From the IMG/VR virus record IMGVR_UViG_3300008262_000017, positions 28,406 through 92,405 of that record: 64,000 nt of DNA. One strand, 5' to 3'. The notes beneath the pieces were generated by a model. It had not been told where the DNA came from, ran no database searches, and worked only from the letters and a program-made list of their open reading frames with translations. Within the stretch, counting starts at the first letter, position 1, and every line of letters starts with the position of its first letter. This document shows, piece by piece, positions 3,766-54,118 of the stretch. The position numbers and the translations under genes were made by a program. The stretch is from a virus.

Positions 3766-4579
3766 AAGCACTTTCTAATTTTTTAATAAAATTTTCAGTT
3801 AAGAAACCTTCTTCTACATAATGCAACAATCCAGATTGTTGAAAATTTCCCACTTTTAAATTTAATTCATCATCTAAAAAACTGTTCAATACATTTGTCC
3901 ATTTAGATGGAATATTTTTCCATCCTTGCACACCTGGTTTCATATGAATAAAAGAAGGAATTCCTCCTTTATCTACATGTGTACCCATAAATCTAAGAGC
4001 TAACGCGGCGCTAAGATCAATGCTACAAAAAGATTGGGCATGATTTTTTAAATGAATTCTATAAAATTTTTGCCAATGTACTACAATAATTTCAAGCCAT
4101 TTGAAAAATTCATAAGCAGTATTTACTTTTCTAAAATAAAATGCTCCTGTGTAAATATTATCTAATCCGTTACGTGTGAATGATTTTCTGTAATAATTGC
4201 TGTTAACAACATTACCTCTATAATCACGAACATGAGTAGTAAAACATAAATCTTTGTTTTCGAAATAATCCCACCAATGGTCATTACTTTCTAATAACAA
4301 CATATCAACATCATATACAATATTTTCTTCAAATGGAGTTGCATAGATTATCTTCCATCTGTTTTCAATTTTCCATTGAGTAGATGCAGCTGAATCTTTC
4401 CATGGAATCGGAACTATGTGATCAAATACATATCTGTATTTTTCTGGAACTGAGTCGTTAGTAATAAGACAAGTTTTGTTTTCTTGATTATGTATTTTAA
4501 TAGACAACGCTAGTGCATAGGCTTGCTCAACATAATCTACGTCAGAATTTTGCGCTAAAAATACATGACCTTTACTCAT
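3746..4579 (-). CDS. GT8-like glycosyltransferase (277 aa)
   Basis: The protein has the layout of GT-A glycosyltransferases that use a nucleotide sugar: an N-terminal segment for a rearranged nucleotide-binding fold, then a DVD metal-binding motif at residues 90-92 in VYDVDMLLL, and late His residues (GLLHYVE near the C-terminus) of the sort that complete metal binding in GT8. It resembles the next gene upstream, 4572-5402, in length, DVD context and overall pattern, so the two are probably diverged paralogs. The start ATG overlaps the stop of that gene by 8 nt (ATGAGTAA), the same arrangement as at the next junction up. The sugar and acceptor are unknown. Confidence 0.7.
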   Translation of the reverse strand: MSKGHVFLAQNSDVDYVEQAYALALSIKIHNQENKTCLITNDSVPEKYRYVFDHIVPIPWKDSAASTQWKIENRWKIIYATPFEENIVYDVDMLLLESNDHWWDYFENKDLCFTTHVRDYRGNVVNSNYYRKSFTRNGLDNIYTGAFYFRKVNTAYEFFKWLEIIVVHWQKFYRIHLKNHAQSFCSIDLSAALALRFMGTHVDKGGIPSFIHMKPGVQGWKNIPSKWTNVLNSFLDDELNLKVGNFQQSGLLHYVEEGFLTENFIKKLESAYARRYS

Positions 4580-40961: not shown

Positions 40962-41399
40962 ATGTCATGGTATTATCAAAACGCAATAGTTGAAACTCTT
41001 CCAGAAGAATGTATAGGTTTCGTCTATTGTATCACTAATAACATCACTGGTCGCAAATATATAGGCAAAAAATTAGCTAAATTCTCTAAAACCACTTATA
41101 AAACAGTAAAACTCAAAAACGGCAACAAGAAGAAAAAGAAGATTCGTTCTAAAATTGATTCTGATTGGCGTGAATACTATGGCTCAAGCGATCATTTAAC
41201 AAAAGATATAGAAACTCTAGGCGCAGACAATTTCACAAGAGAAATACTTTACTACTGCAACTCAAAGGCTGAATGCTCTTACATAGAGGCAAGAGAACAA
41301 TTTACAAGACGTGTTCTCGAAAGTGACGACTACTACAACGGACACATAGCTGTTCGTGTACACGGAAGTCATATCAAAGGCAAACAATTAAACGGTTAA
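40962..41399 (+). CDS. GIY-YIG endonuclease (145 aa)
   Basis: The signature is plain: a GFVYCIT strand at 19-25 with Y22, then YIGKK at 33-37, ten residues later, as in GIY-YIG nucleases. R70 (DWREYYGSS) and a glutamate in the IEAREQF segment (about 108-114) complete the likely catalytic set. A Lys-rich insertion (residues 50-62) would bind DNA. There is no obvious second DNA-binding domain of the kind found in homing enzymes such as I-TevI, and no interrupted gene around it, so a stand-alone repair, resolution or host-DNA-cutting nuclease is as likely as a homing enzyme. It ends the early operon. Confidence 0.85.
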   Translation: MSWYYQNAIVETLPEECIGFVYCITNNITGRKYIGKKLAKFSKTTYKTVKLKNGNKKKKKIRSKIDSDWREYYGSSDHLTKDIETLGADNFTREILYYCNSKAECSYIEAREQFTRRVLESDDYYNGHIAVRVHGSHIKGKQLNG

Positions 41400-41760
41400 A
41401 GCTCGCACAGGCTAATTTCGTGTGCCCAGCATTCAGACAACGGGTTTAACTACACCGGGACGGAAATCTCTTGCCGTTAAGAGTACTCAGCAACTATCCT
41501 TAACAGGACGACGACTAGATATGCCTTCATAGAACTAGTTTTGCTGTTTGAAGATCTTTAATTTAATAAGGCTAATGATGGGGAACTAACCATAACCCCA
41601 CGCTTTGCAAATGTGATAGTGTACATTTGCAAGCCGCCGTTGTAACAAGACAGAATGAGCAGGTACCGGACAACCGCCTGCGATACAATAATTCTAACAC
41701 TATGTGACTGTGCTACTCAGATAATGCAGTTTTTTCTTAGCCCGCTAGGGCTAAGTGTGA
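41400..41760 (+). ncRNA. Candidate structured non-coding RNA
   Basis: The only gap longer than 300 nt (41400-41914) has no credible gene but is visibly richer in GC than its surroundings and full of local stems: GCACA/TGTGC (41405-41425), CTCTT/AAGAG, GACTAG with CTAGTT, GGGG/CCCC (about 41580-41599), TTGCAAATG/CATTTGCAA (41605-41632), GCAGG/CCTGC enclosing CGG-acaa-CCG (41659-41681), and a perfect 8-bp CTTAGCCC/GGGCTAAG hairpin (41736-41755). No tag peptide, RNase P core or complete group I core could be fitted. The strand is inferred from the flanking genes. A degraded gene or a cis-acting packaging or replication site remains possible. Confidence 0.4.
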
Positions 41761-41914
41761 CCGCTTAATCTAGATAATACTTAATTCACTGCTTCGCTAT
41801 CGCTACGCAGCTTCTTTTAAAACATCGTTTAAAAAAAAAATTAGTTCGAGCTGACAAGCGAAGAACTGGATGTACGAAGTACATCTCTAATAAATAACAT
41901 ACATTGGAAGACCT
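41761..41914. other. Intergenic leader with hairpin and A-tract
   Basis: The rest of the gap holds imperfect repeats of CTTCGCT/AGCGAAG type (41790s with 41858-41864), a TTTTAAA/TTTAAAA stem beside ten A residues (41831-41840), and a 7-bp GATGTAC/GTACATC hairpin with a GAA loop (41869-41885) directly before the late promoter at 41889. None has a U-tail on the plus strand, so none is a convincing intrinsic terminator. Confidence 0.4.
41889..41896 (+). promoter_or_regulatory. T4-type late promoter AATAAATA
   Basis: AATAAATA lies 18 nt before the ATG of the 339-aa gene, with the expected start near 41902 and TTGGAAG as the ribosome site. It marks the switch from the early operon to late transcription on the same strand. 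Confidence 0.6.
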
Positions 41915-42934
41915 ATGAAAGTAAGTGAAATTATCTTAGAAGCACCTCAAACTGGAACAAATGCCTTTTCACAGATGGCTGGTCAGTTAGGTGGCGGAAC
42001 ATCTAGTACAGGTGGTACAACTAAATCTACCTCTACTGGACAAACACATAAATCAAACCCTAATAATCCTAACAATGCTTCTCCTAAGAAGCCTGGATCT
42101 ACTAAGAAAACTGGCACTAAACTTAGTGCTGGACCTAAAGGTTTAGTTTCTAATGCAGGAGGAAAATCAACTTCTGTTAGTCCTAAAGATGCACTTAAAA
42201 CGGCTGCTCCTGATAAGGTTGCTGTAGCAGAAAAAGTATCTGGAGGAAAGTGGGAAAAGTTTAAAGCTACTAAACCTTTTAAGATGTTTGGATTAAAAAC
42301 TTTAGGGCCATTTCTTATTTGGTTAGACGACATGTCTAGTATTAACGAATTGTGGGATGCTGGAGCGTTTAATGATCACGGTGATAAAGCCGGAGAAGTT
42401 GTCCAACAGTTAAGAACTTACTATACTCAACTATTAATCACTAGAATGGGAACAATGTGGGTTGTATGGGGATCAGCTAGTTTTGTTACAGGTATGGCTG
42501 TTAGAGCTCTCGTAGCACTGATTCCTGGTCTAGGATGGCTGGCTAACTTAGCTGCGGTAGTAGCGCAAGGTGCGGTATACTTATTATTAAACAGTGAAGT
42601 TGTTCAAAAATATTTAACTTTTACTATATTAGAAAATCTAGCACCTGACTGGATGAGCAATTCAGCGTATGGTATTGCTAGAGTGTTTGGCGGAGTTGGC
42701 GGCTTAATAGGACCTTATATAACTAAACTAAAAGATAAATTTGCAAAAGAAGCCCCTGAAGTTGCAAAAGCTGTTCCTGGAGCAGCTGCCAATGTAGCAA
42801 AAGACGCAGCAAATGCTGTAAAAAATACAGGATCTACTGTTGCTAAAGACGGTGCAACCGCTGTAAAAAATATAGGATCTGCCCCAGCAGCCGAACCGTT
42901 AGGCGCTATGTCTGACCTAGCTAAAGATCTTTAA
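41915..42934 (+). CDS. Putative virion protein with two membrane segments and a cleavable leader (339 aa)
   Basis: I do not recognise a family. The protein begins MKVSEIILEA, where ILE followed by A fits the (L/I)xE cleavage rule of T4-type prohead protease gp21, so the first nine residues could be a propeptide. Residues 10-100 are Thr/Ser/Pro/Lys-rich and disordered. Two hydrophobic helices lie at about 180-202 and 206-226, with WLDD and DWMSNSAYG segments around them, and the tail is an Ala/Lys-rich helix (VAKDAANAVKN repeats). Packaged, protease-processed and membrane-active features fit an ejected internal protein, an inference. A late promoter precedes it, and its stop TAA shares the TTAA with the facing gene. 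Confidence 0.6.
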   Translation: MKVSEIILEAPQTGTNAFSQMAGQLGGGTSSTGGTTKSTSTGQTHKSNPNNPNNASPKKPGSTKKTGTKLSAGPKGLVSNAGGKSTSVSPKDALKTAAPDKVAVAEKVSGGKWEKFKATKPFKMFGLKTLGPFLIWLDDMSSINELWDAGAFNDHGDKAGEVVQQLRTYYTQLLITRMGTMWVVWGSASFVTGMAVRALVALIPGLGWLANLAAVVAQGAVYLLLNSEVVQKYLTFTILENLAPDWMSNSAYGIARVFGGVGGLIGPYITKLKDKFAKEAPEVAKAVPGAAANVAKDAANAVKNTGSTVAKDGATAVKNIGSAPAAEPLGAMSDLAKDL

Positions 42935-53314: not shown

Positions 53315-53398
53315 CATTGTCTAAAATGAAATCGCGCAAAGCGATGTTATGCAGTAACCCACTGCGTAGACCTAGAACGTCACTTAAAGGAGAAACAA

Positions 53399-54118
53399 AT
53401 GGGACGTCCATTACATAAAAAATATTTTGGTAACCGTAACACAGGTTCCACAAGCACAGAAGCTGATAATGGTATCGGCGGACAAGGCGTAGCAAGCGTA
53501 ACAATTGGTGGAGTATGGGCAGGATTCACAGCTCTTACGACTACAGTTACATTTACTGCACCAGACTTGCCAGGCGGCGTATTAGCAACAGGTACAGCAG
53601 TTATTGACGGCGGTGGCGCAGTTACTGGTGTTCTTATGACAGAAAACGGTTCTGGTTATACATCAGCACCTACAGTGACTATTGCTGACAGCGACGGCGG
53701 CGCAGAAACAACAGGCACAGCAACAGCAGTATTAACTGTTGATACTGGTGGTGTACCAGGCAGCACAACTAATCAAGAAAATGCTATCACAATGACTGGT
53801 CGTATTGTTGCAGGTGCAACTGTAGCACTTGATGTTATTAAACAAACTGGCTCACGTCGTTATCTAGCAACTGATGGTACAAACATTGGAGTTGTTGAAT
53901 TAGTAGGCGATGCAGTTGACGCAGCCGGCGAAGCAAACATTATTGCTACTGACAGTGCAAGCGGAACATATTATGTTACTAAAATAACTGCACATAGAGC
54001 ATTAGTTGTTCCAGGCACTGGTACACAATTTCCGTTAGTTGGCGGAAATCCTCAATCTATACCATGGGTACTAGATACTGCTGTTCTAAATACATCTGTT
54101 AAGATTTCTAATGCTTAA
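53399..54118 (+). CDS. Virion structural protein with a GSGY-type beta module (239 aa)
   Basis: The protein is beta-rich and Gly/Thr-rich. Residues about 25-115 carry the pattern ...VTGVLMTENGSGYTSAPTV..., the GxGY...P.V.I module also seen in the giant and 2108-aa proteins. The C-terminal part (QTGSRRYLATDGTNIGVVELVG, then AHRALVVPGTGTQF) looks like a second small domain I cannot name. It follows gp23, and its own late promoter and strong AAAGGAGAAACAA ribosome site suggest high expression, consistent with a decoration or neck protein. That role is inference. Confidence 0.6.
   Translation: MGRPLHKKYFGNRNTGSTSTEADNGIGGQGVASVTIGGVWAGFTALTTTVTFTAPDLPGGVLATGTAVIDGGGAVTGVLMTENGSGYTSAPTVTIADSDGGAETTGTATAVLTVDTGGVPGSTTNQENAITMTGRIVAGATVALDVIKQTGSRRYLATDGTNIGVVELVGDAVDAAGEANIIATDSASGTYYVTKITAHRALVVPGTGTQFPLVGGNPQSIPWVLDTAVLNTSVKISNA

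Follow-up and report, generated by a model that had tools for sequence, protein, structure and literature searches.

What occupies the 515 nt that separate the stop codon of a SegE-type gene from the next open reading frame (ORF; start at 41915) in the 64,000-nucleotide stretch of viral DNA that we analysed (hereafter the window; IMG/VR record IMGVR_UViG_3300008262_000017)? The gap (41400-41914) contains no gene-sized ORF, the longest encoding ~42 amino acids, and its GC content of 43-45%, against ~35-39% around it, is a real but modest increase. An original prediction, made from the letters of the window, had pointed to both properties and proposed an undescribed structured RNA at 41400-41760, ending before a late promoter. 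The two stems that it singled out are exactly present: a 9-bp stem TTGCAAATG/CATTTGCAA (41605-41613 with 41624-41632) and an 8-bp stem CTTAGCCC/GGGCTAAG (41736-41743 with 41748-41755). A candidate late promoter, AATAAATA, does follow at 41889-41896.

A structured RNA larger than its Rfam model

Comparative analysis gives us very high confidence that the structured RNA is real, and we assign it to a gene of ~400 nt at 41386-41784 (+), slightly longer on both sides than first proposed. A pattern describing the core of the Rfam family Polynucleobacter-1 (RF01718) retrieved >100 homologues from viral contigs; a second one, built on the downstream part, added many more, some too divergent for RF01718. 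The phage records are mostly incomplete. Eighty-one sequences were aligned (alignment A1), with conservation spanning 41386 to 41784, and a wider scan covered 141 loci.

The Rfam covariance-model search that the original prediction had suggested matched RF01718 across all 141 consensus positions, covering only 41400-41549. Because this match scores 87.9 bits, well above the gathering threshold of 37, the first 150 nt of the RNA are not undescribed. The edges of the model, however, are not those of the RNA. Significant covariation occurs upstream (41394:41475) and downstream (41582-41694) of it, the R1-R2 identity pairs described below likewise fall outside its boundaries, and across the 81 homologues the conserved fold reaches ~235 nt beyond the end of the match (41549) and 14 nt upstream, the latter inside the last codons of the SegE-type GIY-YIG gene. 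The mismatch is a fault of the extent of the RF01718 model and not of membership. The RF01718 part, the first third of the RNA, is already catalogued; no Rfam family covers either the ~235 nt at the 3' end or the ~14 nt at the 5' end, and for these the description as new stands.

RF01718 was published as a candidate motif in 2010 (Weinberg et al. 2010, PMC2864571), where the passages on Polynucleobacter-1 grade it as probably RNA and probably cis-regulatory, and list as sources Burkholderiales and fresh water or estuary samples. Those passages give no T4-like phage home, which is where we find it. Within the literature searched, PMC2864571 was the only paper to name the accession.

Other identities were considered and rejected. 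In agreement with the original prediction, neither tmRNA nor RNase P fits the sequence (Rfam gave no match with E allowed to reach 5, ARAGORN no hit), and there is no Rfam or core match to a group I intron up to E 5. A decayed gene is at odds with the absence of an ORF and with compensatory changes on the + strand.

A pseudoknotted fold supported by covariation

The structure that we scored across the 81 sequences comprises 16 helices with crossing pairs. Changes on both sides were seen at 58 of the 76 named pairs (27-39 pairs in controls with the partners slid), the proportion of paired cells was 86.5% (35-44% when slid), and the covariation score was 0.383 (slid versions ≤0.118). Against a tree-simulated null, 17 column pairs exceeded the 95th percentile of null maxima, of which 13 are Watson-Crick, 3 are identity pairs and 1 is indirect; among them are 41394:41475, which links a hairpin loop to the last SegE-type codons, and several pairs beyond the 3' end of the Rfam model. 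Covariation in homologues, which the original prediction had named as its check, is thus strong; it far exceeds the shuffled as well as the slid controls, and it also exceeds the tree-simulated null. G.U cells far outnumber A.C cells (516 vs 131), indicating that the + strand RNA is the folded strand. Folding of the window sequence alone was rejected as proof, with z -1.3 for the + strand (11/100 shuffles equally good) and z -2.4 for the other strand; since the + strand value is not significant, the case rests on comparative covariation.

Covariation shows the predicted fold to consist of two pseudoknotted domains (41386-41550 and 41565-41704) followed by a 3' tail, with at least five crossing helices (Table 1). 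The four inner pairs of H1 are 93-98% standard, and the 5' strand of this helix lies outside the Rfam model and within the last SegE-type codons. The RF01718 model lacks H1, the H10/H11 loop contact, H12-H15 and both of the direct repeats present here. The 8-bp hairpin H15 was rejected as a terminator, its T-run preceding the stem.

Table 1. Features of the RNA and its immediate surroundings (window coordinates).
Feature	Position	Strand	Evidence or remark
SegE-type GIY-YIG gene, end overlaps RNA	40962..41399	+	PF19835, E 7.1e-33
Full-length structured RNA, ~400 nt	41386..41784	+	Conserved across 81 aligned phage homologues
RF01718 Polynucleobacter-1 match, model 1-141	41400..41549	+	87.9 bits, gathering 37, E 2.3e-17
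H1 5' strand, pairs with hairpin loop 41474-41478	41391..41395	+	41394:41475 above tree-simulated null
H2/H3 pseudoknot, 41400-02:41411-13 crossing 41405-09:41421-25	41400..41425	+	Covariation; H3 98% paired
Further crossing contact	41414-15 with 41548-49	+	
H5 hairpin, loop participates in H1	41466..41484	+	Covariation
H6 (41488-92 with 41542-46) closing H7 and H8	41488..41549	+	41492:41542 is the best-covarying pair
H9 hairpin	41580..41599	+	41582:41598 above null on A1
H10 hairpin, the predicted TTGCAAATG stem	41604..41633	+	Loop 41616-41621 makes H11 loop contact
H12 pseudoknot, 41639-43 with 41670-74 in H14 loop	41639..41674	+	98.3% paired; 41641:41672 above null
H13 (41652-56 with 41691-95) around H14	41652..41695	+	41653:41694, 41654:41693, 41655:41692 above null
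H14, 41659-63 with 41677-81, GGTACCGG..ACCGCC	Within H13	+	
H11 3' strand, pairs with H10 loop 41616-41621	41698..41703	+	96.6% paired; GC, AU, UA, CG types
Direct repeat R1, CTACTC-AGATAAT-G-CA; 7-mer 41719-41725	41713..41728	+	7-mer equals that of R2 in 81/81
H15 hairpin between repeats, the predicted CTTAGCCC stem	41736..41755	+	Sequence and covariation
Direct repeat R2, TAATCT-AGATAAT-A-CT; 7-mer 41772-41778	41766..41781	+	
Candidate late promoter AATAAATA of downstream ORF, outside RNA	41889..41896	+	Sequence

Two repeats in the tail change together

The last hairpin is flanked by the direct repeats R1 and R2, in the forms ACTC-7mer and ATCT-7mer, each within one of two copies of a tail module, GUG(UG)AC - spacer - NNR-YYY - 7-mer. 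Ten different 7-mers occur in the alignment, and every sequence carries the same one in both repeats. By parsimony the 7-mer has changed at least 27 times on the tree, each time in both copies and never unmatched, and the rule holds with further 7-mers in the 141 loci of the wider scan. As a control, 9545 pairs of variable 7-column blocks were compared, and all but this one stay below an identity of 0.12 (≤0.11). The 7-mer has an identity of 1.00, as has the base just ahead of the triplet that precedes it, with 0.84 and 0.68 further out; on the other side, past one fixed G/A difference, the values are 0.79 and 0.65, so that concordance spans ~16 nt and fades at both ends. The triplets that lie between the matched parts, CTC (R1) and TCT (R2), remain unchanged throughout the 81 sequences. 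All the fixed differences between the repeats (C/U, U/C, C/U, G/A) are wobble-compatible transitions. To our knowledge, identity covariation (A-A to G-G to C-C) has not been described for any natural RNA, and we know of no RNA mechanism that explains or requires two identical RNA segments without a complement.

Could the repeats be kept alike with no function, by gene conversion or by template switching at the hairpin? A palindrome between direct repeats favours template switching, and the fall in identity with distance from the 7-mer would fit such concerted evolution. We nevertheless hold it to be very unlikely: CTC and TCT, although they lie between matched parts, never homogenise, and the rule also holds in bacterial copies. 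Translational bypass, suggested by a UAA or UGA in one frame of the phage 7-mer, was dropped because the bacterial copies have no stops and landing would stop at once.

The RNA could alternatively be a guide with two seeds, R1 and R2 pairing with the same trans partner, be it host or phage RNA or DNA. The ~16-nt concordance with fading ends is what such a guide might show and, because the fixed differences are all transitions, a G or a U in a single partner could pair with either repeat. A search for such a partner returned little. Within the RNA, the 7-mer has no complement that recurs at a set position; phage genomes contain no conserved complement, and neither the window nor five phage genomes show an extended one that stands out. 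A strict 13-nt complement, sought in three bacterial genomes with known 7-mers, gave only R1, R2 and one chance-level site. Two different 7-mers moreover coexist in Polynucleobacter rarus and, less exactly, in the bacterial genome G063, and on this evidence we consider a guide unlikely; a partner pairing with the 7-mer alone may still be hidden among the chance occurrences of so short a sequence. No third copy of the repeat is conserved elsewhere in the phages. A recurrent ATCATCCAGAT site 7-9 kb away was rejected as a third copy, as it is constant while the 7-mer varies.

Each repeat might instead bind one subunit of the same protein, with a specificity that differs between lineages, and the placing of each within a module starting GUG(UG)AC is a plausible layout for a dimer. 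This arrangement would need at least 27 independent changes of specificity, and SegE, absent from some loci, has no residues that co-vary with the 7-mer; a protein dimer is highly improbable.

Phage loci and the genes around the RNA

The RNA is common to many lake phages, namely uncultured T4-like freshwater phages, in which gene order is near constant: gp46/gp47-type recombination genes, usually a small ORF, the SegE-type gene and then the RNA. The SegE-type gene is at the expected place in 71 of the 81 aligned loci and is the only constant neighbour in phages, though absent from some loci (the examined flank of L155 is without it). Searches with the 3'-domain model R1 show no such RNA behind the SegE relatives in Melnitz, ACP17, S-SRM01 and others; the model does recover divergent phage copies in L223 (E 7.7e-10) and L034 (6.7e-7) and, at E near 0.005, in L011, L210 and L006. 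No homologue was found by blastn among cultured phages and plasmids in collections, and a pattern scan of genome collections gave four real matches, the remainder being mostly chance. Two loci, L083 and L102, are identical over ~370 nt of the RNA and the upstream gene, and unrelated from the start of R1's module, a sharp recombination breakpoint. With only one clear breakpoint pair found, module swapping was rejected as the sole cause of joint change. Other RNAs were seen in passing: L179, a phage contig that also has a Polynucleobacter-1-type RNA, carries a permuted tmRNA (RF04321, 92.5 bits) and a tRNA at 3958-4257 (+), and the window has a freshwater-2 RNA (RF02980, 55.9 bits, cut-off 49.9) at 53330-53401 (+), just before the ORF at 53399.

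On the 3' side of the RNA stands either a highly variable ORF or, directly, a convergent gp26-type baseplate gene. The ORF (41915-42934 in the window, with counterparts in L002, L016, L020 and L100) is hypervariable between phages, matches no Pfam family in the window, and often starts with MKIxEVIxE or similar, a start that we take to resemble the capsid-targeting leader of T4 internal proteins; its product is possibly an injected protein. The motif TATAAATA occurs only twice in the window (44008 (-) and 61934 (+)), against 9.8 expected by chance, and is strongly avoided outside likely late promoters.

Is the RNA, then, a cis-regulatory leader of the next gene, in the window the 339-aa ORF at 41915? 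PMC2864571, in its grading of the motif, marks it as probably cis-regulatory, and at many loci R2 is followed, after 100-140 nt, by the start of a variable ORF, frequently with an ATAAATA box ahead of it. The downstream side is not constant, however. At least 12 loci (for example L003, L005, L014, L060, L064, L083 and L103) have a convergent small ORF and a gp26-like gene instead, many loci have no sense gene just downstream of the RNA, and at the bacterial copies the next sense gene varies, its start 400-3400 nt away. The box lies no more than 160 nt past R2 in 47 of 79 loci, and an ORF with such a box seems to be served by a promoter of its own, placed after the RNA. A leader or riboswitch would be expected at a constant position ahead of a co-oriented target, and it would leave the identity of R1 and R2 unexplained; we judge a leader function to be distinctly unlikely. 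Because the downstream side is inconsistent, we infer an autonomous RNA.

Bacterial copies on mobile elements

Among 399 genomes sampled from the order to which P. rarus belongs, RF01718 matched five, four of them above the cut-off. The carriers are mobile elements of some Burkholderiales, Polynucleobacter itself included. The 3'-domain model R1 gives no useful E-value on these copies, and we assign them by their match to RF01718, by landmarks that come in the same order and by the R1/R2 rule, which they follow with other 7-mers. P. rarus has two copies of the RNA, with the 7-mers AGCGAAA (L404) and AGTAAAG (L427), and because both occur in one organism the 7-mer code belongs to the locus and not to the host.

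A divergent DUF6641 gene stands on the other side of the RNA in all 8 bacterial loci examined, and a small tyrosine recombinase gene downstream in 5 of the 8, often with an AAA ATPase gene; PF00589 was confirmed for the recombinase at the L254 copy. Up to four DUF6641 genes (PF20346) are present in some Burkholderiales genomes (L403-L410, L418-L433), several with a divergent RNA copy alongside, and their loci form a mobile unit with the AAA ATPase and small tyrosine recombinase genes. Further RNA copies include at least L427 and, less exactly, L429. Upstream of the RNA, all 8 loci have a TAAATA box, at the near-constant distance of 26-66 nt before the RF01718 match in L403 to L410, and in L404 and L408 it reads TATAAATA. 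The box looks like a T4 late promoter and is a candidate for one; if it is of this type, it would hint at expression on phage infection.

The recombinase genes raise the question of whether R1 and R2 serve, at the DNA level, as sites for a site-specific recombinase, with the 7-bp core as the overlap for strand exchange. Attachment sites of tyrosine recombinases share with the repeats an identical, freely varying 7-bp core between fixed flanks, and the L083/L102 pair, whose RNAs agree fully until R1's module begins and are unrelated from there on, could be read in the same way. The phages, in contrast, lack a recombinase (a PF00589 protein in 0 of 22 phage records), no inverted arms surround the 7-mer, no duplicated attachment repeats are found within ~10 kb of the bacterial copies, and the repeats, ~54 nt apart inside a conserved RNA, would make no useful integration unit. 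Recombinase sites are for these reasons a decidedly improbable explanation.

An RNA that may read its own repeats

The explanation that we prefer, at about even chances, is an autonomous non-coding RNA of ~400 nt, the full-length form of the RF01718 motif, whose tail repeats are matched against each other. Such an RNA would most likely stand alone and act during infection rather than switch the next gene. Its body would serve as a scaffold holding the two repeats, and in the working step R1 would be matched against R2, in the same molecule or at its own gene, with no fixed partner reading each. That R1 is matched to R2 itself is suggested by the identity rule together with the lack of a complement and the different 7-mers within one genome, and we infer the step by exclusion. 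One copy of the repeat may take the place of the other, through strand exchange, for example, or by hopping over the hairpin, and the 7-mer would be a free, lineage-specific code that needs to agree only with itself. Each of three steps, strand exchange, a hop across the hairpin or direct homotypic contact, would require the copies to be identical without fixing which sequence they share. That the repeats act on each other through identity, by homotypic (parallel, same-base) pairing or by strand exchange or hopping, we put forward tentatively, as a possibility with the greater weight against it.

Among known systems, the RNA resembles GOLLD and ROOL, large multi-pseudoknotted non-coding RNAs of phages and mobile elements whose function is unsettled, although the window RNA has no Rfam match to either family. 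Both are larger, and matched repeats are not known for them. The pRNA of phi29, likewise from a phage, makes loop-loop contacts and has a short code specific to the lineage. Its codes are complementary, whereas that of R1 and R2 is identical, and with no sequence or Rfam match the comparison concerns only how the RNAs might work.

An Rfam motif more than a decade old thus makes up about a third of an RNA that is much larger, strongly pseudoknotted and common among freshwater T4-like phages. Matched repeats predict that changing one would break the system and that changing both alike would restore it, and P. rarus, a cultured carrier, makes the rule testable. If the identity reading is true, this is a new kind of RNA covariation; if the repeat rule holds, it would point to a nucleic-acid step that reads identity of sequence, not complementarity.
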